The notes beneath the pieces were generated by a model. That model ran no database searches. It was not told the DNA's origin and worked only from the letters and a program-made list of their open reading frames with translations. Positions 6,510 through 34,772 of a DNA stretch of 34,772 nucleotides are shown one piece after another. Where the stretch lies: the IMG/VR virus record IMGVR_UViG_3300025652_000242, positions 1 through 34,772 of that record. The stretch is one strand, 5' to 3'. Within the stretch, counting starts at the first letter, position 1; each line of letters starts with the position of its first letter. The position numbers and the translations under genes are program-made. The DNA comes from a virus.

Positions 6510-7271
6510 CTATTTCTCATGGTTTTGACCAACTTCTTGCATAAATTCTTTCATATATTCTTTTGACTCGTCCTTACATACTAGCCAAAAAACTAACAAA
6601 TACCTGTCTCCACTAATTACAGGCAATCCTCTGTGCATGTGAGTTAGACTTGGAAAGATTAAAGCATTGCCCGTAGGTAAAGGCTCAACCGTTCCTTTTC
6701 TCATAAACTCAGTACCACCACCTTCATAATCTCCAGTATTAAGAGGTACTACTATACTTATATCAGAACTAGCATCGTGATGCCAAGCTCCCTGTTTTTT
6801 ATCTTTTAAATTGTAGTTAGCTATCTGTATATTACCACCAGTAACGTGCCTATTCCAAATACTCAACAATATTGGATTTATAACCGAATCAACCACCTGC
6901 ATCAAAGAGTGATAAAGCTGTGGACATTTATCATATAAAACTATCTCTGGTATCTGTCTTAGCTCATCCTCTTCTTCATTTGGCTCAAAACCAAAATGCT
7001 CTGTCATGTTGTGCATTTCATTGATGAGCAGGTTGCATAGCTCTTTGCTAAACAAAGGGACTGTATGCACATCGGGTAAAGGCTCTTTAATAATAGAGTT
7101 TAACGGAAGGTTGTCTAAAGATTCTGCTTTTTCGTTATAAAAGTCGCTTAGTATTGGTAATGTTTCTTTAGCTTTTTCAAGCGTTTCTTTGTCTACAAAC
7201 CAATCTGAAGCAAAGCCAAGTAAAAGATTTTTTAATTGGTATTCTTGTTCTATGTTAGTTTGAGCCAACAT
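6510..7271 (-). CDS. 2-oxoglutarate/Fe(II)-dependent oxygenase, prolyl-4-hydroxylase-like
   Basis: A 253-residue protein. The C-terminal half has the double-stranded beta-helix signature of Fe(II)/2OG dioxygenases: H164-x-D166 in AWHHDASSD, the distal His at H213 in HRGLPV, and R223 in SGDRYLLVFWL, ten residues after the His, which would bind the 2OG carboxylate. The Gly-rich EGGGTEF strand and the FPSLTHMHRG segment also fit the P4H-type fold. The first 90 residues are helical and do not match the core. The expected reaction is hydroxylation of a protein side chain or small molecule using 2OG and O2. Such enzymes occur in many marine phages without a known substrate. Its place among tail genes suggests a virion protein substrate, which is inference. 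Confidence 0.85.
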   Translation of the reverse strand: MLAQTNIEQEYQLKNLLLGFASDWFVDKETLEKAKETLPILSDFYNEKAESLDNLPLNSIIKEPLPDVHTVPLFSKELCNLLINEMHNMTEHFGFEPNEEEDELRQIPEIVLYDKCPQLYHSLMQVVDSVINPILLSIWNRHVTGGNIQIANYNLKDKKQGAWHHDASSDISIVVPLNTGDYEGGGTEFMRKGTVEPLPTGNALIFPSLTHMHRGLPVISGDRYLLVFWLVCKDESKEYMKEFMQEVGQNHEK

Positions 7272-24205: not shown

Positions 24206-24682
24206 TTAAACTGTACCCCATTCTTTGCCCTCAAACAATAAGGCTTCAGCATTTCTTCTTTTCATCAATCCCTCGTTAGGTACTCCTGCGACTTTATTCC
24301 ACCTTTTAATTTGGTTTGGAACATCTGCCCAGTCTTTGTTATTCAAAACCTTTAGCAGTGTAGAGGCTCGCAAATTGCTTGGACCTAGATTAAAAACCCA
24401 TGAAACCAAAGCATCAAATTCATTTTGTTTAAGGTCTGCTTTTACCATGTCATTAATATAACCTTCATACTCGTGTAATTCGTGTGCAAGTAAATCTTCA
24501 GCATCTTGTTTACTTATAGTCATGTCGTCTTTGACTGGACTACCATCTATTAATTTTAGACTGCCAAAACCTATAGTAGCTTTATTGGCTGCACACCTGT
24601 AACTAACTACGTTGCCGTCTTTATCCGTAGGACAGCCTTCAAAAAATTTAATTAAATTAATGCCTTCATTTGATATTTTCAT
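24206..24682 (-). CDS. endolysin, GH24 phage lysozyme
   Basis: A 158-residue T4-lysozyme-family muramidase that cleaves the glycan strand of peptidoglycan. E15 in IKFFEG is the catalytic Glu. The TIGFG strand gives T36. C30 in SYRCAANKATIGFG lies six residues before T36, the spacing of D20 to T26 in T4 lysozyme, so Cys takes the usual Asp position, as in many phage lysozymes. RRNAEALLFEG closes the domain. The start is the ATG at 24682, nine bases after AAGGAG at 24692-24697; a longer frame back to 24748 adds only a basic, non-homologous lead. There is no signal or SAR segment, so release needs a holin. It directly follows the spanin genes. Confidence 0.9.
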   Translation of the reverse strand: MKISNEGINLIKFFEGCPTDKDGNVVSYRCAANKATIGFGSLKLIDGSPVKDDMTISKQDAEDLLAHELHEYEGYINDMVKADLKQNEFDALVSWVFNLGPSNLRASTLLKVLNNKDWADVPNQIKRWNKVAGVPNEGLMKRRNAEALLFEGKEWGTV

Positions 24683-24683
24683 T

Positions 24684-25058
24684 TTAATTATCTCCTTCTT
24701 GTGGTGTCGTAACTTTTTTATAATAGACAACAACTTCTTTAAGTTCATTTATATACCTCTTTAATTCCTGCATGTTGTAAGCCATAAGCTCATAATCAGG
24801 TACTGACATTGCAAAAAATACAACTTGACCGCTTTCTTTTTCTATTCGCACTAAAAACTCATCAATATTTTCATTTGATACTACATACCAATAAGGGTCT
24901 TTAAGGTCTATTTCCCTAGGCATAATAGGCTGCACTATAGTTCTTTCTATAGGCTTAGAAACAATCTCTACCTGTTTAGTTGGTAGCAGACTGCAACTGC
25001 AAGCCATCATCAAGACTGTCAATGTTGCGACTATCTTCTTCAATGCTATCAAATACAT
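24684..25058 (-). CDS. outer-membrane lipoprotein, putative o-spanin (Rz1-type)
   Basis: A 124-residue protein starting MYLIALKKIVATLTVLMMAC. It has a basic N-region, a hydrophobic core and a lipobox-like VLMMAC, so the mature lipoprotein would begin at Cys20. The rest is periplasmic, with a Pro-containing segment (VQPIMPREIDLKDPYWYVV) and a C-terminal helix (YNMQELKRYINELKEVVVYY) that could pair with the inner-membrane partner. It starts inside the last part of the i-spanin gene in another frame (83-base overlap), the classical Rz/Rz1 arrangement. It would fuse inner and outer membranes in the last lysis step. It is longer than most Rz1 proteins, so the spanin call rests largely on architecture. 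Confidence 0.72.
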   Translation of the reverse strand: MYLIALKKIVATLTVLMMACSCSLLPTKQVEIVSKPIERTIVQPIMPREIDLKDPYWYVVSNENIDEFLVRIEKESGQVVFFAMSVPDYELMAYNMQELKRYINELKEVVVYYKKVTTPQEGDN

Positions 25059-25371
25059 CTTTGGTTCCTTTATTTACTCTTGGTTCTATAAGCCCGGGTT
25101 TGGCTGCTGCTAATTTGGTTAAATTATGTCTTTTAAATATGTCAAGATACCTTGACATCTCTTGTTGAATCTCTTGGTTTCTGCCCTGCAGCTCTAATAA
25201 ACTATTTGTTTGTAAAGTAAAATCGTTTTGCAGGCTTTCAATTGCTTCTTTTTGTGTAGCAACAGCTCCTTCTAATGCAAGATTATTGGCTGTAAGTGTT
25301 TGATTTTGGGTAAATAAATAATAAGTTATAGCTGTTAAAACAAAAACTACACCTATTAAAACTTTGCTCAT
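24976..25371 (-). CDS. putative i-spanin (Rz-type)
   Basis: A 131-residue protein with one N-terminal membrane segment (VLIGVVFVLTAITYYLF, residues 4-20). A long periplasmic coiled coil follows (NNLALEGAVATQKEAIESLQ through QEIQQEMSRYLDIFKRHN). The C-terminal third is polar. This is the Rz-type topology: N-terminal anchor, coiled-coil ectodomain, overlapping lipoprotein gene in a different frame, and lysozyme next. It overlaps the 60-residue membrane protein by four bases. The alternative is a generic structural membrane protein, but the context favours lysis. Confidence 0.75.
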   Translation of the reverse strand: MSKVLIGVVFVLTAITYYLFTQNQTLTANNLALEGAVATQKEAIESLQNDFTLQTNSLLELQGRNQEIQQEMSRYLDIFKRHNLTKLAAAKPGLIEPRVNKGTKDVFDSIEEDSRNIDSLDDGLQLQSATN

Positions 25372-25550
25372 ACAAACTTAGATAAAACCACAGAAAGTAA
25401 AATAAACGGATAAACAGCCCATATCATATTTTCTAGCTTATCAAAACGCTTTGAGCCGTCTTCTAGTCTTTTCTCTATATTTGCGTATCTAATCGTACAC
25501 TCTCTTTCGTGTGCTTCTATTTTGGTAATTGCTTCTTTTGTTGTTGCCAT
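25368..25550 (-). CDS. small coiled-coil plus transmembrane protein, XhlA/holin-like
   Basis: A 60-residue protein. Residues 1-40 are a charged amphipathic helix (KIEAHERECTIRYANIEKRL). Residues about 42-58 form one membrane segment (MIWAVYPFILLSVVLSKF) at the very C-terminus. This soluble-helix then C-terminal anchor layout is that of haemolysin XhlA-type and related phage lysis proteins. It sits directly upstream of spanin and lysozyme genes, making it the best holin or holin-partner candidate. It overlaps the i-spanin start by four bases. Confidence 0.68.
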   Translation of the reverse strand: MATTKEAITKIEAHERECTIRYANIEKRLEDGSKRFDKLENMIWAVYPFILLSVVLSKFV

Positions 25551-25558
25551 AAATCTAA

Positions 25559-27322
25559 TTAACTTGTTGTATAAATTTTTAATGGTTTCTCTTTCCCTTT
25601 AACCTTGATAGATTCTAACACTTTTAAAGAATAACCACAAAACTTTTCTGTTTCTTCACCAATGAGTATGTCTACGCCTCTTTCTTTAGTAGCAGACTCA
25701 AGCCTAGCTGCAATATTAACAGCATCGCCAATAGCAGAATAGTCAAACCTAGTATTGCTACCCATATTACCTACGATGGCATCACCAGTATTTAAACCAA
25801 TGCCTATGGCTATAGATGGCATACCTTCTACTTTAAGCTCTTGGTTTACCACTTTAATATTTTTTATTATATCTAAAGCACATTCAAAAGCTATTTGTTC
25901 GTGATGTTTTACATCAAGAGGTGCGTTAAATATGTACATCCCGGCATCGCCAATAAATTTGTCTACCAAGCCTCCGTGTTTTTGTACTGCATCTACTTGC
26001 GCTGTTAAAACCTTGTTCATAATGTATGTCACCTGCTCAGGTTCAACCGACTCACTTAGTGCAGTAAATCCTCGTAAATCTGTAAAAATAAAAGTACACC
26101 TTCTTCTTTCTCCGCCTAATTTTAATAAATCAGGGTTTTTCTGTAATTGTTTTACTTGCCTTGGGTCAAGGTAATGTTCAAATTGTTTTTTAATTTGTAG
26201 GCGCAATTTAAACTGTTCTCTAAAGCGTAAATAGAAAGCAATAGCTCCTGCAATAAATTGTGAGACTAAAGTCCAAGTTACATCAATTAAAATACCTGTT
26301 TGTATTAACCAATAACCGCCTAATGCCGTACACAGCATTGTTAAAATAGCTAATGCAATGCCTAGGGTCATACCAAGATAATTGATTAGCAGCCATGTCA
26401 AAGACACTATTATAGTAAAAATTAGTATTTCTGCTGCTAAAGACCAGTCAGGGATTATTGGTGAGTTTTCTAAAAGAATTGACTCAGCTAGTGCTGCTTG
26501 TATTTTGTGTGGCTCTAATAATCCAACTGGGGTTGCTACTTGTGGCATAACGCCGTTTGCTGTAACGCCAATAATTACAAACTTGCCTGCAACTTTCATT
26601 TCTTCTAATGTGGTTTGTGGTGTATCAACCCAACTAACCCACTTGCGGCCAAAGTTATCTGTTTTTATTGGTGGCAAATGTCTTACTGCTATTTCCTGAA
26701 TACCATTATCATTTGTAGTGATAATATAAGACCTTGTTTCTGTTAATGCTTTTAATATTTCTGTGCCAAAACTTGGCGACCATCCATCAGGTGTTTTCAT
26801 TAACAAGGGTATACGTCTAACTAAATTATCTATATCTACCGGAGCTGTTGCAATGCCTTGATAGGTTTGTTCTTTTAATACATCAATATTTTCTACAATA
26901 CCCTGTGTTGGTATGCCTCCAACTTCGTTTCCCTTAATGACTGTCCCAACTGTTTTTGGATATTGACCGTTTGGTGTTTCAAACATAGCAAGCACACTTG
27001 GAGCAAAAGACAATGCCTGTGCAAAAACATCATCACCACCAAACCTGTCAGCTTCTGAAAAGCTCATAGCCCAACCAACGCCAATAGCTCCTTCGTTAAT
27101 TAAGTCTATTTGTATTTGTGCTAGGTCTCTTCTTGGAAATGGAAAGCCACCTCTTTCTCTAACATCAGATTCTGATATGTTAAGAATTACAAAGTTTTCA
27201 CTTGGTTCTTGTTCTTTAACCAGTGCGTCAAATGTTTTTAGTTTTAGTATTTCTGTTGGAGTAGATTGAAACACTAGCGGTAAAGCTAGTGTTATCAATA
27301 TTGGTACGATTAGTTTTTTCAT
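25559..27322 (-). CDS. CHASE2-domain receptor adenylate cyclase (class III)
   Basis: A 587-residue membrane receptor enzyme making cAMP from ATP. Residues 4-19 are an N-terminal anchor. About 25-290 are an extracytoplasmic CHASE2 sensor (FVILNISESDVRERGGFPFPR, GAIGVGW, VRRIPLL, GKFVIIGVT). Three membrane helices lie near 297-317, 318-340 and 345-366. A linker follows (FEHYLDPRQVKQL), then a class III cyclase domain. All key residues are present: metal Asp D415 (FTDLRGFT) and D459 (FIGDA), adenine-selecting K455 and S529 (FDYSAIGD), and N536 and R540 (AVNIAAR). K plus Ser/Thr is the ATP-specific class IIIb pattern. The gene is intact, translationally coupled to the 106-residue gene before it (TAATG), and abuts the lysis genes. 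A receptor cyclase in a phage is very unusual. Confidence 0.93.
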   Translation of the reverse strand: MKKLIVPILITLALPLVFQSTPTEILKLKTFDALVKEQEPSENFVILNISESDVRERGGFPFPRRDLAQIQIDLINEGAIGVGWAMSFSEADRFGGDDVFAQALSFAPSVLAMFETPNGQYPKTVGTVIKGNEVGGIPTQGIVENIDVLKEQTYQGIATAPVDIDNLVRRIPLLMKTPDGWSPSFGTEILKALTETRSYIITTNDNGIQEIAVRHLPPIKTDNFGRKWVSWVDTPQTTLEEMKVAGKFVIIGVTANGVMPQVATPVGLLEPHKIQAALAESILLENSPIIPDWSLAAEILIFTIIVSLTWLLINYLGMTLGIALAILTMLCTALGGYWLIQTGILIDVTWTLVSQFIAGAIAFYLRFREQFKLRLQIKKQFEHYLDPRQVKQLQKNPDLLKLGGERRRCTFIFTDLRGFTALSESVEPEQVTYIMNKVLTAQVDAVQKHGGLVDKFIGDAGMYIFNAPLDVKHHEQIAFECALDIIKNIKVVNQELKVEGMPSIAIGIGLNTGDAIVGNMGSNTRFDYSAIGDAVNIAARLESATKERGVDILIGEETEKFCGYSLKVLESIKVKGKEKPLKIYTTS

Positions 27323-27642
27323 TAATAACTTGAATCTTCAAAAATTTTATCAATGGTAGCATGATGTTTGTCAAACTGCTCCTTTGTCGTTCTGTCCTCC
27401 GCCTTTTGTGCTTTTGCAATGACTGATTCAATTTCATCAAAATTATTCCAATCAGGTTCAAGATTGTCGCACCTTTCTTGGTCTAGCATAATTGCTAGTG
27501 GTGTCATCGTTTCACCATTTTTGAGACCCAGTGCTATTGCAGGTTTGCCGTCATCCCAAACACAGACCAAGCAAAGGTCTTTTGGATTCTGTTGGATTAA
27601 AGTCATCTTCTCATACACTTTTTGTAATGTAGGTTTACTCAT
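27322..27642 (-). CDS. protein of unknown function upstream of the cyclase
   Basis: A 106-residue soluble protein. The first half is mixed alpha/beta (LCLVCVWDDGKPAIALGLKNG), with two Cys in CLVC. The second half is charged helix (IESVIAKAQKAEDRTTKEQF) ending in a His-rich HHATIDKIFEDSSY. It has no signal peptide or membrane segment, so it should be cytoplasmic, on the same side as the cyclase catalytic domain. Its stop and the cyclase start share a base, and its start touches the stop of the zinc ribbon. Such tight coupling suggests a shared function, but I recognise no domain. Confidence 0.62.
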   Translation of the reverse strand: MSKPTLQKVYEKMTLIQQNPKDLCLVCVWDDGKPAIALGLKNGETMTPLAIMLDQERCDNLEPDWNNFDEIESVIAKAQKAEDRTTKEQFDKHHATIDKIFEDSSY

Positions 27643-27833
27643 TATGCCACCTCCTCTTCAATTCTTTCTTCACGATAGCCACCCCAACCTTCGCCAGTAG
27701 CGTAGACAAGCCAGTAGCCACAGTTTACACAATCCTCACGATTGGAAGTTTGGTCAAGCGTGGAAGCTTGACACTTAGGGCATTTAGAATCTTGAAGTTC
27801 AAAGCCACCAGTTCTTTCTATTCTTATTGTCAT
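27642..27833 (-). CDS. small zinc-ribbon protein, first gene of the cyclase operon
   Basis: A 63-residue protein. One zinc ribbon uses C18-x2-C21 (KCPKCQAS) and C35-x2-C38 (DCVNCGYW), followed by an acidic, Trp/Gly-rich tail (GEGWGGYREERIEEEVA). It is the first gene after the sigma-70 promoter at 27868-27895, with an AAGGAG ribosome site, and is coupled to the next gene. It could bind nucleic acid or RNA polymerase, as many small phage ribbons do. No family name can be given. Confidence 0.68.
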   Translation of the reverse strand: MTIRIERTGGFELQDSKCPKCQASTLDQTSNREDCVNCGYWLVYATGEGWGGYREERIEEEVA

Positions 27834-27857
27834 ATTAATTAACTCCTTTTTATTTAA

Positions 27858-27873
27858 TATACCTACCAGTATA
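27858..27873. repeat. inverted repeat overlapping the -10 element
   Basis: Five-base arms TATAC and GTATA flank six bases, centred just downstream of the -10 box and including it. A repressor bound here would block transcription. It is short and the region is AT-rich, so chance is possible. Confidence 0.4.
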
Positions 27874-27895
27874 CATAGATTTCAACAGAAGTCAA
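27868..27895 (-). promoter_or_regulatory. sigma-70 promoter for the cyclase-lysis-packaging operon
   Basis: Minus-strand TTGACT (27890-27895) and TATACT (27868-27873) are separated by 16 bases. Each box matches the consensus at five of six positions, and it is the clearest promoter in the window. It lies 34 bases before the ATG of the zinc-ribbon gene and directly after the FecR stop, with no terminator between. It would drive zinc ribbon, unknown protein, cyclase, lysis, terminase and head genes toward the terminator at 15661. Host polymerase with the housekeeping sigma factor should recognise it. Confidence 0.8.
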
Positions 27896-27912
27896 CACTT
27901 ATCTACACTTAT
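27893..27912. repeat. tandem 10-base repeat overlapping the -35 box
   Basis: Two consecutive copies, read on the minus strand as ATAAGTGTAG and ATAAGTGTTG, differ at one position. The second runs into TTGACT. Ten-base spacing places both copies on the same helix face, as expected for an activator or repressor site. It also abuts the FecR stop codon. Confidence 0.5.
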
Positions 27913-29031
27913 TTAATCTGACTGAGTAATTGTTATGACCGAATCACCGCCTCCATTTACTTTAACCACATTAGAAATACCGTCTTGTATAAAGATGACT
28001 GTGTAAGAATTGCTGCCGTCTAAATCCACGCGGACGCTTTCATTAACCTGTCTTCTAAGGCTTACAACATTACCTGTTATTAATGTGGTAATTTGTGTTT
28101 CAGGGTCTCTGCCTAAAAGTGTTCCTGTTATTTGCGTGCTAGTTGCTTGTGCTAAAACATCTTCTTCTTCTGCTATAGCCAATGCATCTAAAACATTTAA
28201 TAAGTCTTCCAAATAATTTACATCAAGATAATTGATTGAAAGCTCATTGTATTCAAGGCTATCGTCAGAAAGAAAGTCCTCAGCAAGATAGTCTATATCT
28301 AAATCATTAAAATCAAGCACGCTGTCGCCTTTTGTTGTTGTGGTTTCTTCTTGTATGACTATTTCTTCTTTAGGAGGAGTAACAATAAGCATGTTATCTA
28401 TGACATCAAGTGTTAAATCTAAGATAACAGGTTTACTTGGAGCTGATTCAAACACGCTTACCGTTGTAGCTTGATATGGTTTATTTAAAAGAACGGTACC
28501 CATTGCAGTGACCACCTCTATCTCACCACTTGATAATCCAAGTGCATCAGGTAAAAGTATAATTAATGACCTACCTAGCTCATCTACTGTAGCTGTAAAA
28601 TCGGTACCTCTAATTGAAATATTGGCTGTAGGTGTTTTAAGACTAATATTTTTTTTGTCTATCTTGTTTAGACTGCCTGTAATAAACCTTGCTGTACCTA
28701 GACCAAAGGTAAGAGCCATTTTGGCTTTTGATGGGTCCGGGTCATAGATATATTCATCAATAATTAATTCGCTAAACTCTGTAAGTTTTACAACAGAATC
28801 ATCCAAGAAAGTAATGGCCATACGTCCATTGGTCGTTATAGCCTCATCATTGCTTTGTATAGCAAATTCTAAGTTGGCATCGTAAGGCTTATCTCTTACT
28901 ATTTGTGCTGAACCGTTTAGTTCAGAAATATCTCCAATACTAGCAGCCTGTGCTTGTACCTTGGTCGTTTTGGATAACGCAAACAGTAGAACTAGCGTTA
29001 CCGCCATTTGATATAATTTTAAGCCAGTCAT
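27913..29031 (-). CDS. secreted FecR-domain protein
   Basis: A 372-residue exported protein. Residues 1-28 form a signal peptide ending VQAQA. Residues about 33-150 are a FecR domain: AITFLDDSVVKLTEFSELII, DEYIYDP, GLGTARFITGSLNK and the hallmark SLKTPTANISIRGTDFTA. Residues 238-280 are acidic with DYL/NYL repeats. The C-terminal 75 residues are beta-rich and include FIQDGISNVV and end SVITITQSD, reminiscent of a curlin repeat. FecR domains of this type are periplasmic or surface modules and in bacteria often lie next to CHASE2 cyclase genes, as here. The first 92 bases overlap the curlin-like gene in another frame. A role as sensor or anchor for the curli-like product is inference. Confidence 0.85.
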   Translation of the reverse strand: MTGLKLYQMAVTLVLLFALSKTTKVQAQAASIGDISELNGSAQIVRDKPYDANLEFAIQSNDEAITTNGRMAITFLDDSVVKLTEFSELIIDEYIYDPDPSKAKMALTFGLGTARFITGSLNKIDKKNISLKTPTANISIRGTDFTATVDELGRSLIILLPDALGLSSGEIEVVTAMGTVLLNKPYQATTVSVFESAPSKPVILDLTLDVIDNMLIVTPPKEEIVIQEETTTTKGDSVLDFNDLDIDYLAEDFLSDDSLEYNELSINYLDVNYLEDLLNVLDALAIAEEEDVLAQATSTQITGTLLGRDPETQITTLITGNVVSLRRQVNESVRVDLDGSNSYTVIFIQDGISNVVKVNGGGDSVITITQSD

Positions 29032-29665
29032 TATCTTGGGTACTCAGTTGTTGAATATTAAAAGTTCTTGAGCCGCCAGTATGGTCTAAGTAAAAATATC
29101 CACCTGCTGAAGCATTAGCACCTGTACCTGTATAGGTTAATGTATTATCCGACCCATCAATATCAACGTAGTTTGTGGCTCCGTCAATGTTAATGTTTGA
29201 AGTAATAGTATTGTTAGAACCTTGAATAATCCAATCTAAATTCAAAGATGCTGCTATTGCAGTCGTTCCTTGATTTAAAGTAAAGGTATTACCACTACCT
29301 GTTACAGCTACATTTTGGTCAGAACCGTCTGAACTATATGTATCTGTTGGGTCTACTTGGATAGTAAATGTATTGGTACCACCGGTAAAGTTATACAAAC
29401 CTGTAAAGTTATCTGCAAATATATCACCAAGAAACTTATTAGTTGCACCAATCATATTAATATCAAGAGTCATTGTGTTTCCGTCTAGGTCTAGTGCATT
29501 AACACTGCCTGCTGTAGAGTTTAACCCACCAATAATGTTAGATATTCCTAATTGTTCCAAGTCTATATTTGCACCAGTACCTGATTGGTCTACAAATATT
29601 TCGTTATCTGCCGCAAAAGCTCCCAAAGAAATAATAGCTATTATGCTTATTAATTTATTTTTCAT
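28940..29665 (-). CDS. secreted curlin-like protein (putative CsgA/CsgB-type substrate)
   Basis: A 241-residue exported protein. The signal peptide is MKNKLISIIAIISLGAFA. The mature protein begins with a curlin-type pattern, FVDQSGTGANIDLEQLGISN, with Q-x-G...N spacing. The rest is Asn/Thr/Gly/Asp-rich beta sequence with recurrent GSNNT/GSDNT/GATN turns spaced like rungs of a beta-solenoid. The C-terminus has FNIQQLSTQ and ends SSTVCVIQNDQGTSTGC, with two Cys that could pair outside the cytoplasm. It directly follows the CsgG gene (four-base gap), as expected for the secreted substrate. It is longer and less regular than E. coli CsgA (151 residues), so amyloid formation is not assured. Confidence 0.72.
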   Translation of the reverse strand: MKNKLISIIAIISLGAFAADNEIFVDQSGTGANIDLEQLGISNIIGGLNSTAGSVNALDLDGNTMTLDINMIGATNKFLGDIFADNFTGLYNFTGGTNTFTIQVDPTDTYSSDGSDQNVAVTGSGNTFTLNQGTTAIAASLNLDWIIQGSNNTITSNINIDGATNYVDIDGSDNTLTYTGTGANASAGGYFYLDHTGGSRTFNIQQLSTQDNDWLKIISNGGNASSTVCVIQNDQGTSTGC

Positions 29666-29669
29666 ATTA

Positions 29670-30506
29670 TTATTCTACTCCTTCATTTTTAGGTTGTAAA
29701 ACCCAGTATGATTTGTTATAGCCAATTTGTATTAGTTCTAACACTGCCGTTTCAATGGCTCGCATTAGTGCTATAGTTCCTGACTCGTTTCTAGCATTAC
29801 CCATTTCTATTTCTACTAGCTCGGTATTCGCCTCTATAAATCTAAAAATATCGTCTGATTTGCCGTATGAAAATATGGTTTTTTCTGTTAAAACTTCTAT
29901 TAATATTTCTCCAGTTGCTACTGATACCATTCTCAAAGACAGGGTAACACTGTCTTCTCTATACATAACAGAGGAACTGAGGCCTAACCAACGTGCGCCT
30001 GCACCTCCGCTAGTTAGATTGGTTTCATAAGAAATGACAGCACCTTCTATAAGCACGCCTGCAAATAACAATGGTCGCAATGCTTTCTTTTTATCTTCCT
30101 CTGATGCAGATTGTTCTCTTGCAGAACGAATGAGCTGTCTTTCTTTGGTTAAATTGTCTAAACCAACTCTTTCTACTACTACAAAAAAATCACCGTCTGC
30201 TGCATGTTTTAATGCTCTAATTAATAAAGAACTTGGCTGTTGTGTTATAGCCGTACTAAATAAAGCAAACTCGCTGTTGCTTTTTCTTTGTCCTGTTTGG
30301 TCTGTAAAAGATGATGGATAAACAGCAACTACTGGTTTTACTTGTGGCTTTTGTACATTAAGTAGCTCTAAGGATTGCAGTTCTGATATTTTAACGACAT
30401 CTTTTGCTTTGAATCTTTGCTCATAAGTATCGTCAAATTGGTCAAAGATTGAACAACTAGAAAGTAAAAGTACCGATAGGAATTGTAATTTCTGTAATTG
30501 TGCCAT
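29670..30506 (-). CDS. csgG: CsgG-like curli secretion pore lipoprotein
   Basis: A 278-residue lipoprotein, nearly the same length as E. coli CsgG (277). The signal peptide ends in LLSSC, giving acylated Cys18. The mature domain has PVVAVYPSSFTDQTGQRKSN near residue 60, FSTAITQQPSSLLIRAL near 83-99, DFFVVVERVGLDNLTKERQL near 105-124 and LLFAGVLIEGAVISYETN near 146-163. It continues with the transmembrane hairpin strands (ARWLGLSSSVMYREDSVTLS) and VSVATGEILIEV. These are the hallmark CsgG blocks, so it should form a nonameric outer-membrane channel. Its start lies inside the end of csgF (50-base overlap). CsgE and CsgD are absent from the window. Confidence 0.93.
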   Translation of the reverse strand: MAQLQKLQFLSVLLLSSCSIFDQFDDTYEQRFKAKDVVKISELQSLELLNVQKPQVKPVVAVYPSSFTDQTGQRKSNSEFALFSTAITQQPSSLLIRALKHAADGDFFVVVERVGLDNLTKERQLIRSAREQSASEEDKKKALRPLLFAGVLIEGAVISYETNLTSGGAGARWLGLSSSVMYREDSVTLSLRMVSVATGEILIEVLTEKTIFSYGKSDDIFRFIEANTELVEIEMGNARNESGTIALMRAIETAVLELIQIGYNKSYWVLQPKNEGVE

Positions 30507-30999
30507 CTGCTTCTGTTATTTTAAGTGTTAATGTAACGCCATCACTTGTGTATTCAATGGTATTTCCTTCTAAGGTTATTGTACCTGAGCTTGATGGTGT
30601 TTCGCCAAATAGGTTGTTTACAAGCTGTCTTGATAGTTCTGCATAAACTCTTGATTCAAGATTACGCATAAATCTTGCTAGGGTAGAGTTTTCTTTTTCT
30701 CTTTCTATTTCATCCTGTAAGGCCTTAATCTCCTCTTTGATGGTTAACTTTCTTGAGAACTCTTGGTTTTCTATAGTAAGCCAATGGGAACTTGTGCCTA
30801 TACCGCTAAAACTTGGTGATTTGAACTTATGAACTATTTGGTCTGCTCGTAAGTTTTGTGTAAATATACCTACAAATAAAGCAAATCCTATGGCGATTAC
30901 AAACCATAAAACTTTATTTTTTTCAGCTTCTTCCTTTCTGCGTTTTAGTTCTGCTTTACTTGGTCTGCCTACTTTTCTTTTAATCTTTCCTTTGGTCAT
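30457..30999 (-). CDS. csgF: CsgF-like curli assembly factor with N-terminal extension
   Basis: A 180-residue protein. Residues from about 53 match CsgF: the N-terminal plug IVHKFKSPSFSGIGTSSHWL corresponds to 'TFQFRNPNFGG....GAFLL'. A helical region follows (ARFMRNLESRVYAELSRQLV), then a C-terminal beta meander (TIEYTSDGVTLTLKITEADG...). In bacteria CsgF inserts this N-terminal peptide into the CsgG channel and links nucleation to secretion. Ahead of the domain are 28 basic residues with the AT-hook-like KRKVGRPSKAE and a membrane segment at 29-46, then a possible cleavage site after LRA. E. coli CsgF has only a 19-residue signal peptide. The start at 30999 has AGGCGG upstream, so the extension looks real. 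Confidence 0.88.
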   Translation of the reverse strand: MTKGKIKRKVGRPSKAELKRRKEEAEKNKVLWFVIAIGFALFVGIFTQNLRADQIVHKFKSPSFSGIGTSSHWLTIENQEFSRKLTIKEEIKALQDEIEREKENSTLARFMRNLESRVYAELSRQLVNNLFGETPSSSGTITLEGNTIEYTSDGVTLTLKITEADGTITEITIPIGTFTF

Positions 31000-31330
31000 C
31001 TCTATCCGCCTTTGCTAACCTATCGGTGTGCATCAATTGTGGTACACCAAGTATAGTCTTCAAAAGCGTGTCTTGTCTAATAATCTCATTGTCAACAGAA
31101 CGCACTCTGTCTATAAGAGCTACCAAAATACCGTGTTGTGAGTCTAGTTTTGCTCCTAGTCTTGCTTCTATTTCAGATATTTGCGCAGATACTTTTTCAT
31201 CAAGTACATCTACTTTTGTTTCCATGCCGTCAATGATTTTGTTAATAAGTTTCCAAATAAAAAGACCTAATCCTATAGCTGCTGCTATTGGAAAACCAAC
31301 TTCATTAATTAATTGAACTACACCGTCCAT
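30980..31330 (-). CDS. holin-like membrane protein with coiled coil
   Basis: A 116-residue protein. One membrane segment lies at residues 12-30 (GFPIAAAIGLGLFIWKLINK). A long charged helix follows (KVDVLDEKVSAQISEIEARL through DRVRSVDNEIIRQDTLL) and the C-terminus is charged. The N-terminal-anchor plus coiled-coil layout with 'I.E.GFPI...I.L..F' resembles BhlA/UviB-type putative holins. Its 3' end overlaps csgF by 20 bases, and its start shares a base with the nuclease stop. It may be a holin, or it could act with the curli block. Confidence 0.68.
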   Translation of the reverse strand: MDGVVQLINEVGFPIAAAIGLGLFIWKLINKIIDGMETKVDVLDEKVSAQISEIEARLGAKLDSQHGILVALIDRVRSVDNEIIRQDTLLKTILGVPQLMHTDRLAKADRDDQRKD

Positions 31331-32462: not shown

Positions 32463-34772
32463 TTATTCTCCTTTTAAAGTTTGTATTTCGGCTTTTAATT
32501 CATCTACTTGCGTAGACAGTTCTTGGACTGCTTTAACCATGACAGACATAATAGCTGCTGGAGCAACTCTTTGCCTTCCATCTGATTCATCTTCTTGCCA
32601 CATATCAAAGCCATCTTTTAAATTGTGATTATCAATTACTTCTTTAACTTCTTGTGCTATAAAACCATGATTATATTTACCATTCATGGTTCTTTCTTCA
32701 GAACCTTCTTTATAGGCTCTCATTTCTGAAGGTATATCTTTTTCTTTTTTCCATTGGAAAGTAACAGGTCTTAAATCGTTTATAAAATCTAAACCTACTT
32801 TTTCATCTTGTATATCTTCTTTTAATCTAATATCTGAAGGAGCTGTAATTGATGTTGCTCCGTATGCTATATTGCTATCAAGTGAAGCATTACCAAATGT
32901 AAAATTATCGCCACCAACTCCTACTACATCAAAACCAATAACAGTAGATGTATTGGTGGTTGATGCTGCTGGACGAGTCTGTATACCTAAACAAACATTT
33001 CCTCCACCCGTAGTTAAGTTATCCCCAGCGTTCATTCCCAAACAGTTATTATTAGAACCTGTAGTAATTGCTCCACCAGCACCTTGACCTACTGCTGAAT
33101 TTTGAATACCTGTGGTATTTGTAATTAAAGCACTATAACCAACTCCTGTATTGCTTGAAGATGTCGTACTATTATTTAGAACGTAATTACCAAGAGCAGT
33201 ATTTTGTGTTCCTGTAGTGTTTGTTTCTAAAGTTTGTGTTCCTACAGCAACATTATTATTTGGAGTAGTATTAGCTGCTAAAGCTAAAGCACCAACTGCT
33301 ACATTACCTATACCTGTAGTGTTTGCTCCTAAAGCATCTACACCAACTGCTGTGTTGCTTGTAGCTGTAGTATTAGCATCCATAGCACCTTTACCAACTG
33401 CTGTGTTGTTTCCGCCAGTTGTATTTGCAGTAAGTGCAGCATAACCTATTGCTGTGTTATGAACAGCAGTAGTATTTAATTTTAAAGTATCAGAACCAAC
33501 AGCTACACATTTATCTCCAACTGTATTTGTATACATAGCATCAGCACCAATAGCTACATTACCACCTATGTTGGTATTTGCTTGTAATGCTCTATTACCT
33601 ATAGCAACGCTATATCCACCAGTTGTATTTGAATCTAATGCTTCTGCTCCAATTGCTACGTTACCTGCACCTGTAGTGTTTGCTGTTAAAGCTGCATGAC
33701 CAACTGCGGTGTTGTTACTTGCTGTTGTATTAGAATCTAAAGCTCCATTACCAATAGCAGTATTTAAAGTACCAGTTGTATTGGCACCTAGAGCAGCATT
33801 ACCAAGTCCTGTGTTATTAGAACCTGTAGTGTTAGCATCTAAAGCACCATGACCCATAGCTACATTTGAAGCACCTGTAGTGTTTAATGCTAAAGCTTCA
33901 TATCCAACAGCAGTATTGTTTGATGCTGTAGTATTGGTTGATAAGGCTCCTTGACCTATACCTACATTTGAACCACCAGTAGTGTTAGAGCCTAAACTAC
34001 TTAAACCCATAGCAATATTAGCTGAACCTGTTGTATTAGCATCTAATGAAACATAACCTATGGCAACATTATAATTACCTGTAGTGTTTGATTCTAATGC
34101 TTGTCTACCTATCGCTACAAGACCTGTGCCTGAAGTATTTAATTCTAATGCTTCATGCCCAACAGCAGTATTGTTATTTCCGTTATTTTCTTGTAATGCT
34201 GCTCTACCAACCGCAGTATTTCCATATCCTGTTGTGTTGGCATACATGGCAAAAGAACCAACTGCTGTATTAATTTCACCTGTGGTGTTAGAACCTAAAG
34301 CGTGTCTACCGACTGCTGTGTTATTTCCTGCTGTGGTATTGGCATCTAAAGCACCTGAACCAATGGCAACATTTTCAGCACCTGTAGTGTTTGCATTTAA
34401 AGCACCATAACCCATAGCAGTATTATTAGCACCTGTTGTAGCAAGTTCCATTGCTTGTCCACCGACAGCAGTATTAGTAGTACCTGTTGTTAGATTTTGT
34501 AAAGACAAAGCACCTACTGCTGTGTTGTAAGTGTCTGCATTACTAGAAGGATTAAATGTTGTTAAAGATTTGTAACCAAGAGCTGTATTTCTGTCTCCTA
34601 CTGTATTAGCATCTAAAGATAATGCACCTATCGCTACGTTTAAATCACCTGTAGTGTTTGCTGTTAAAGCTCTATAACCAAGTCCTGTGTTATTAGATGC
34701 TGTAGTGTTAGCAGCTAATGCTTCACGACCTACTGCAACATTAGTTCCACCTGTGGTGTTTAGCTCTAAAGC
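32463..34772 (-). CDS. tail fibre with beta-solenoid repeats and S74 intramolecular chaperone (5' end outside window)
   Basis: The frame is open from the right window edge to 32463, giving 769 visible residues; an internal TTG at 34508 is not the true start. Residues 1-598 hold about 35 copies of a 17-residue repeat, consensus NTAVGxxALxxNTTGxx, with 4-5 separated by an insertion. Such repeats form a trimeric beta-roll as in YadA-type heads. The last 124 residues are a peptidase S74 chaperone: SDIRLKED holds the Ser/Lys dyad (five residues apart), NHGFIAQEVKEV follows, and a C-terminal coiled coil (VQELSTQVDELKAEIQTLKG) trimerises it. The chaperone cleaves itself off after folding the trimer. 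It probably binds the host surface. Confidence 0.92.
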   Translation of the reverse strand, partial: ALELNTTGGTNVAVGREALAANTTASNNTGLGYRALTANTTGDLNVAIGALSLDANTVGDRNTALGYKSLTTFNPSSNADTYNTAVGALSLQNLTTGTTNTAVGGQAMELATTGANNTAMGYGALNANTTGAENVAIGSGALDANTTAGNNTAVGRHALGSNTTGEINTAVGSFAMYANTTGYGNTAVGRAALQENNGNNNTAVGHEALELNTSGTGLVAIGRQALESNTTGNYNVAIGYVSLDANTTGSANIAMGLSSLGSNTTGGSNVGIGQGALSTNTTASNNTAVGYEALALNTTGASNVAMGHGALDANTTGSNNTGLGNAALGANTTGTLNTAIGNGALDSNTTASNNTAVGHAALTANTTGAGNVAIGAEALDSNTTGGYSVAIGNRALQANTNIGGNVAIGADAMYTNTVGDKCVAVGSDTLKLNTTAVHNTAIGYAALTANTTGGNNTAVGKGAMDANTTATSNTAVGVDALGANTTGIGNVAVGALALAANTTPNNNVAVGTQTLETNTTGTQNTALGNYVLNNSTTSSSNTGVGYSALITNTTGIQNSAVGQGAGGAITTGSNNNCLGMNAGDNLTTGGGNVCLGIQTRPAASTTNTSTVIGFDVVGVGGDNFTFGNASLDSNIAYGATSITAPSDIRLKEDIQDEKVGLDFINDLRPVTFQWKKEKDIPSEMRAYKEGSEERTMNGKYNHGFIAQEVKEVIDNHNLKDGFDMWQEDESDGRQRVAPAAIMSVMVKAVQELSTQVDELKAEIQTLKGE
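32979..34772. repeat. about 35 tandem 51-base repeats within the tail fibre gene
   Basis: The repeat period is 51 bases (17 codons), with one shorter 48-base unit and one 10-residue insertion between units 4 and 5 of the visible part. Units vary in sequence but conserve NT/NV-A-V/I-G and NTTG. This kind of array can expand or shrink by recombination and may change fibre length. Confidence 0.9.

Follow-up and report, generated by a model that had tools for sequence, protein, structure and literature searches.

Introduction

Why would a marine phage carry genes of the curli secretion pathway of bacteria, and what would their products do in an infected cell? This question is raised by a 34.8-kb IMG/VR virus record, IMGVR_UViG_3300025652_000242 (all 34,772 nucleotides of it are called the window below), which comes from a marine phage. 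A first-pass annotation had described three consecutive genes at 28940-30999, csgF, csgG and a gene for a curlin-like protein, as a phage-encoded secretion unit. These genes lie exactly there on the minus strand, but the unit is larger: the cluster consists of six genes (25559-31330, minus strand), and those for a 116-amino-acid (aa) protein, a FecR-domain protein and a CHASE2 cyclase had been missed. In our reading, the phage carries in this cluster a minimal secretion unit of type VIII (curli), through which the infected cell would export a fibre or coat to its surface. Judged from the sequences, we give this reading a probability of about 0.6. In the order of the genes, the cluster reads as follows (E, expect value).

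30980-31330, minus strand: 116-aa protein, constant partner of the cluster, at the position of the published histidine kinase (HK); transmembrane-like segment at residues 7-33 and a coiled coil
30457-30999, minus strand: csgF, 180 aa; PF10614, E 9.6e-16, 58.6 bits against a cut-off of 25.8
29670-30506, minus strand: csgG, 278 aa, predicted outer-membrane channel lipoprotein; PF03783, E 4.9e-45
28940-29665, minus strand: predicted curlin-like exported substrate, 241 aa; signal-peptide-like N-terminus, GxxN turns, Curlin_rpt matches of its relatives
27913-29031, minus strand: predicted exported FecR-domain protein, 372 aa; PF04773, E 6.2e-9
25559-27322, minus strand: CHASE2-class III adenylate cyclase (AC), 587 aa; PF05226, E 1.2e-27, and PF00211, E 8e-20

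Such clusters have been published for pelagiphages since 2020-2022, and this phage is a further member. CsgF and CsgG were reported in pelagimyophages in 2020 (PMC7029224), and the OM43 phage Melnitz was described in 2022 with the same cluster and a lysis hypothesis by Buchholz et al. (PMC9004378). In HTVC023P-type podoviruses, Wittmers et al. (2022, PMC9599517) found the order HK-CsgF-CsgG-CsgA/B-FecR-(CsgA/B)-AC, which is widespread in ocean viromes and present in metatranscriptomes. On the one hand, the earlier remark that csg genes occur in a few marine phages agrees with these pelagiphages. On the other hand, a unit with its substrate is not new, since the curlin-bearing order is published (PMC9599517) and the records of HTVC008M and Melnitz already annotate the curlin gene.

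Results

CsgF and CsgG

The profile hidden Markov model searches suggested in the first-pass annotation were significant for both proteins, and CsgF and a full-length CsgG were confirmed at their positions, the latter with the lipobox LLSSC visible in its sequence. When a profile of twelve phage CsgG proteins was compared with the E. coli CsgG structures, the alignment covered 231 residues (E 2.6e-65, 223 bits). The N-terminus of CsgF has a lysine-rich n-region and a hydrophobic export segment at residues 30-48. Its most conserved part is the FKSPSF...TIENQ stretch, the pore-binding N-terminus, with a median pairwise identity of 0.86. Beyond this stretch the median is 0.72, beside 0.71 for CsgG and 0.75 for the curlin-like protein; in conservation, the distal part of CsgF is on a level with these two proteins. 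Apart from the marine records, GenBank OR851715.1 (1499 bp, 'Salmonella phage S.Kent 1-2-1') gave a CsgG match of 42% over 74% of the query and is possibly bacterial csg DNA filed as phage.

The curlin-like protein

The third gene appears, from its sequence and its predicted fold, to encode a divergent curlin-like exported protein. Taken alone, the protein has no significant match in Pfam or PHROGs. Among its relatives, 9 of 24 family members match Curlin_rpt at E<=0.1 (best 1.3e-5), and the profile of the phage family picks the curlin open reading frames (ORFs) in chromosomal csg loci of bacteria (E 7e-7 and 3e-5). The protein contains 10 GxxN turns where 3.5 were expected from shuffled sequences, and at least 10 were reached in 15 of 20,000 shuffles. 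The invariant columns of the family are Q27, Q38, G40, N43, G73, N76, G95, N98, G123, N126, G149 and N152, and Q206 and Q232 are invariant likewise, beside Q27 and Q38. The curlin-type motifs at the N- and C-termini are kept together with the GxxN ladder. Structure prediction, also suggested at the outset, gave a confident AlphaFold model, an all-beta repeat with its turns at the GxxN sites (predicted local distance difference test, pLDDT, 81.5; predicted template modelling score, pTM, 0.79). Its best structural neighbours among viral models bear the name 'Curlin associated' (E 3.1e-4, template modelling score 0.65).

Conservation and origin of the cluster

The large terminase subunit (TerL) is 55-60% identical to those of HTVC027P, HTVC023P and 023Pt_psg01, which places the phage in the HTVC023P (SAR11 phage) type, and we infer SAR11 to be the host of this particular phage. 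Because these relatives are 58-61 kb long, the record is probably a fragment. The genes are arranged like an operon, with overlaps of 20 nt between the 116-aa gene and csgF, 50 nt between csgF and csgG, and 92 nt (28940-29031) where the FecR gene starts inside the curlin gene.

The search of marine viral genomes proposed earlier found csgF-csgG-curlin in this order again and again in related contigs. The following counts come from loci that were chosen by similarity and are related, and they measure constancy and not independent events, which weakens them as support. In HTVC023P-like loci found with CsgG and reaching far enough, the 116-aa family and csgF stood upstream in 62/62, the curlin gene and then the FecR gene downstream in 69/69, and the cyclase in 47/47. 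In HTVC008M-like loci, defined by relatives of the HTVC008M CsgG, the curlin and FecR genes were present in 39 of 39 and the cyclase in 17 of 18, and a second curlin-like gene was found in 14 of 18. There, csgF lay directly 5' of csgG in 63 of 74 loci; among the remaining 11, the five cases displayed have a second copy of the 116-aa family between csgF and csgG. All six genes are under purifying selection, with median ratios of nonsynonymous to synonymous substitution (dN/dS) of 0.08-0.13, which are rough values, as synonymous sites are near saturation and the cyclase value comes from 7 comparisons.

A chimera of phage and bacterial DNA, which the first-pass annotation had named as a possible error, is ruled out, because in independent contigs, drawn from other metagenomes, this cluster is flanked on either side by the same phage genes. 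A scan of genome contigs for a bacterial donor of the whole cluster gave only phage-like contigs inside metagenome-assembled genomes (MAGs). Five chromosomal csgF loci of Alphaproteobacteria had no FecR, cyclase or 116-aa homologue within ~9 kb. The phage cluster may therefore be composed of parts with different origins, although five loci are few. Separately, CsgG contigs in MAGs titled Maricaulis, Flavobacteriaceae, Neomarinimicrobiota, Rhodobacteraceae and Pelagibacter (L165-L171) carry the cluster or parts of it, most of them with the 116-aa family, and are likely phage contigs binned into bacterial MAGs.

The 116-aa membrane protein

The first gene of the cluster encodes a small protein with a single N-terminal hydrophobic segment. 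We equate its family with the published HK by position and copy number. No kinase domain was found in this family (94-118 aa) in Pfam, PHROGs or NCBIfam, and it has no invariant histidine; on these sequence grounds, the label 'histidine kinase' should be revised. In a scan keyed on the 116-aa protein, csgF followed directly in 77/77 loci, and the family is likewise present in every one of the 62 csgG-keyed loci with enough upstream DNA. Such a constant link with csg genes speaks for a function within the cluster. A PHROG labelled holin was weakly matched by 6 of 16 family members (best E 5.1e-6). As a sole role, that of an ordinary phage holin is not supported: the protein sits beside csg genes in T4-like phages too, csgF is the next gene in all 77 loci keyed on it, and in 11 loci of the pelagimyophage type csgF does not directly adjoin csgG, the cases displayed having the second copy between the two.

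The FecR-domain protein and the CHASE2 cyclase

All 25 members of the FecR-domain family examined have PF04773 alone behind a signal-peptide-like N-terminus, and the anti-sigma part of FecR iron/citrate signalling proteins was not found in any of these 25. The conserved partner 3' of the gene is the cyclase, not a FecI- or FecA-like protein. Judging by this architecture, the label 'iron regulator FecR' should be revised: the protein is a predicted stand-alone exported domain like those that accompany CHASE2 cyclases in bacteria, and a FecR-CHASE2 sensor pair fits better than iron signalling. In the predicted structure, the N-terminal half is confident, the middle is not and the end is unreliable. 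We also considered the C-terminus (ending ...SVITITQSD) as a hidden curlin repeat and rejected it: the hhalign probability was 3.5%, none of the 25 members matched Curlin_rpt, and the model is unreliable there. As a separate observation, the same bases encode the C-terminus of the curlin-like protein and the signal peptide of FecR, and an MTGL-type FecR start recurs in many related phages.

The cyclase, a predicted membrane protein, has intact catalytic motifs (FTD, DKxxGD, GDAVNIAAR), and the residues expected of class III cyclases, namely the metal-binding aspartates, the adenine-specifying lysine and the transition-state Asn/Arg, are present in its sequence. Two further genes lie between it and the FecR gene.

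27642-27833, minus strand: CxxC-type (zinc-ribbon-like) protein, 63 aa; four cysteines, weak sub-threshold Pfam matches
27322-27642, minus strand: 106-aa protein; no family in Pfam or PHROGs

Neither is constant, the 63-aa gene being missing from most relatives and the 106-aa gene present in some only, and neither ORF matched a curlin in Pfam or PHROGs. In Alphaproteobacteria, FecR-domain proteins stand directly before CHASE2 cyclases at two loci (L212 and L216) whose retrieved stretches contain no csg gene. CHASE2 cyclase-FecR clusters are also known from Campylobacterota, according to a survey (PMC9239204). In addition, a genome of the family sampled below (G101:C1:324111-327853, L213) encodes a CHASE2 protein and, some 2.4 kb away, a FecR domain, which is another sign of the two going together; a class III cyclase was not found in that genome.

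Cyclic AMP in the presumed host family

The sample consisted of 60 genomes of a SAR11 family, namely that of G003, a MAG with the title Candidatus Pelagibacter. Two of the genomes had CsgG, and only these two had a class III cyclase; in each, both genes share a contig and are separated by a few kb. In G003 this contig is the phage contig L171, and we infer that the contig in the other genome is a phage contig as well. Outside the csg-bearing contigs, neither a curli pore nor a class III cyclase was found in the 60 genomes, the search covering class III and not classes I and IV. Cyclic nucleotide-binding domains (CRP-like receptors) were present in 2 of the 60 genomes, one of them G003, a 1.6-Mb and possibly contaminated MAG; none was found in the window. 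If the host is SAR11, the cyclic AMP (cAMP) would be without a known receiver.

Neighbouring genes

Downstream of the cluster lie TerL and the lysis genes (24206-25371, minus strand), which are context outside the module. The earlier statement that the unit is phage-encoded and near lysis genes was correct.

24976-25371, minus strand: Rz-like gene; phrog_739 E 9.4e-15 and phrog_812 E 1.8e-11, given jointly for the spanin pair
24684-25058, minus strand: second spanin-like lipoprotein, on the same joint phrog_739/phrog_812 basis
24206-24748, minus strand: phage lysozyme; PF00959, E 9.8e-36

Adjoining the spanin genes, a 60-aa protein with a C-terminal transmembrane-like segment (25368-25550, minus strand) is a candidate holin; it has a sub-threshold match to the gene transfer agent head formation family RCAP_rcc01685 (E 4.7e-6). 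At 32463-34772 (minus strand) is a long tail fibre or spike gene, repetitive with many copies of 'NTTGxxNxAxGxxAL' and ending in a Peptidase_S74 chaperone; the 5' end of the gene lies beyond the record edge. Among the structural genes, the protein of 6510-7271 (minus strand) matches a phage 2-oxoglutarate-Fe(II) oxygenase family (phrog_61, E 1.6e-31). An Rfam search gave no match, and promoter matches were not above chance.

Discussion

Considering these genes together, we propose that during infection CsgG would form a channel in the outer membrane, with CsgF at the channel mouth, and that the curlin-like protein would be threaded through this channel to the outside, where it would build a fibre or coat on the surface of the infected cell. 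The presumably periplasmic FecR-domain protein may bind the CHASE2 sensor domain as its ligand or act as its partner, and cAMP could then be made in response to export or to the state of the envelope. The most plausible benefit would be an altered surface of the infected cell, either tethering it to neighbours or shielding it from other phages. A fuller version is tentatively possible, in which the six genes form a self-contained export-and-sensing circuit: the 116-aa protein, seen only with the cluster, would work with CsgG and CsgF instead of CsgE, the FecR-domain protein would report the export or envelope state to the cyclase, and cAMP would act through an unknown receiver.

Several observations weigh against the secretion reading. 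The exported curlin-like protein of the first-pass annotation stands by its relatives' Curlin_rpt matches, its beta-repeat model and its signal-peptide-like N-terminus, but its own match to Curlin_rpt (E 0.005) is below the cut-off, and a fold search of its model against the PDB gave no significant match. Most of the glutamine ladder that true curlins have is lost in this protein. CsgE is absent from the window as had been noted, with no PF10627 match in the 34.8-kb record, itself a fragment, while the E. coli control was detected. A FecR neighbour was found in 3 of 30 bacterial CHASE2 loci examined. In addition, no clumping was seen in Melnitz-infected cells (PMC9004378).

Some of these points suit an alternative that we regard as doubtful, namely that the curlin-like protein leaves through CsgG and then remains a coat or adhesin of monomeric or short beta-solenoids, which could serve superinfection exclusion, for instance, and does not build an amyloid fibre. 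The largely lost glutamine ladder and the two C-terminal cysteines of HTVC023P-type curlin-like proteins agree with this, as do the self-contained beta repeat of the AlphaFold model and the unclumped Melnitz cultures. However, the GxxN ladder and the terminal curlin-type motifs are kept, and so is CsgF. In bacteria, CsgF couples export to fibre nucleation.

It is unlikely that the CsgG-CsgF pore is a lysis or depolarisation device, a gated secretin or pinholin analogue to which the substrate is secondary, as argued for Melnitz by Buchholz et al. (PMC9004378). The cluster does precede spanin and lysozyme genes in the HTVC023P type, with lysozyme downstream in 36/37 HTVC023P-like loci with room, and the weak matches of the 116-aa family to a holin-labelled PHROG point the same way. 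However, the curlin, FecR and cyclase genes are all kept under purifying selection, this phage already has spanins and a lysozyme, and in the pelagimyophage HTVC008M the cluster has DNA-replication genes on one side and tail genes on the other, the 17.8 kb displayed containing no annotated lysis gene. CsgG is an outer-membrane channel, and alone it would not depolarise the inner membrane. The controlled leak before lysis suggested in the first-pass annotation is likewise weakened, because the substrate and FecR are never missing beside the pore in the loci examined and the HTVC008M cluster has no annotated lysis gene in the same 17.8 kb. Very unlikely is an uptake channel, put forward in PMC7029224 and PMC9599517, in which CsgG, ungated as no CsgE gate is in the record, would admit larger nutrients or siderophores into the infected cell's periplasm, since it leaves unexplained both the exported curlin-like protein, kept in all loci counted of both types, and the conservation of CsgF beyond the pore stretch, and since FecR lacks the iron-signalling architecture. 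We consider the lysis and uptake pores weaker than the secretion unit because they give no reason for keeping the substrate, distal CsgF, FecR and cyclase.

That a virus gives a secretion system to a streamlined ocean bacterium without one, and could so change the sticking, aggregation and phage resistance of infected cells, is an already published point. Our study adds that, across the loci examined, the pore, substrate, FecR, cyclase and small membrane protein go together almost without exception, that two published labels call for revision, and that the presumed host family offers no evident receiver for cAMP.

Comparison with known systems

The closest system is the type VIII secretion cluster of HTVC023P-type phages (PMC9599517), which shares the phage type and the order csgF-csgG-csgA/B-FecR-AC. 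In contrast to it, the present cluster has no second curlin gene after FecR, a feature that is frequent though not universal there, and carries the 63-aa and 106-aa genes instead; none of the libraries searched showed a kinase domain in its gene at the 'HK' position. HTVC008M and Melnitz (PMC7029224, PMC9004378) have the same order, with 116-aa-family copies upstream and then curlin, FecR and cyclase genes. They differ in having two 116-aa-family copies and an extra gene between FecR and cyclase, which is a second curlin in Melnitz, and they belong to a different phage family, the CsgG match being 52% to HTVC008M and 44% to Melnitz. With csgBAC/csgDEFG of E. coli, the cluster has in common a full-length CsgG, CsgF and a predicted curlin-like substrate. 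Unlike E. coli curli, it has no CsgE found and degenerate substrate repeats, and a FecR-domain protein, a CHASE2 cyclase and a small membrane protein are added. Compared with the bacterial CHASE2 cyclase-FecR clusters (PMC9239204), the phosphodiesterase or TPR partner was not seen here; as in those clusters, the FecR-domain protein adjoins a CHASE2 adenylate cyclase, and in this phage the pair is joined to curli genes.

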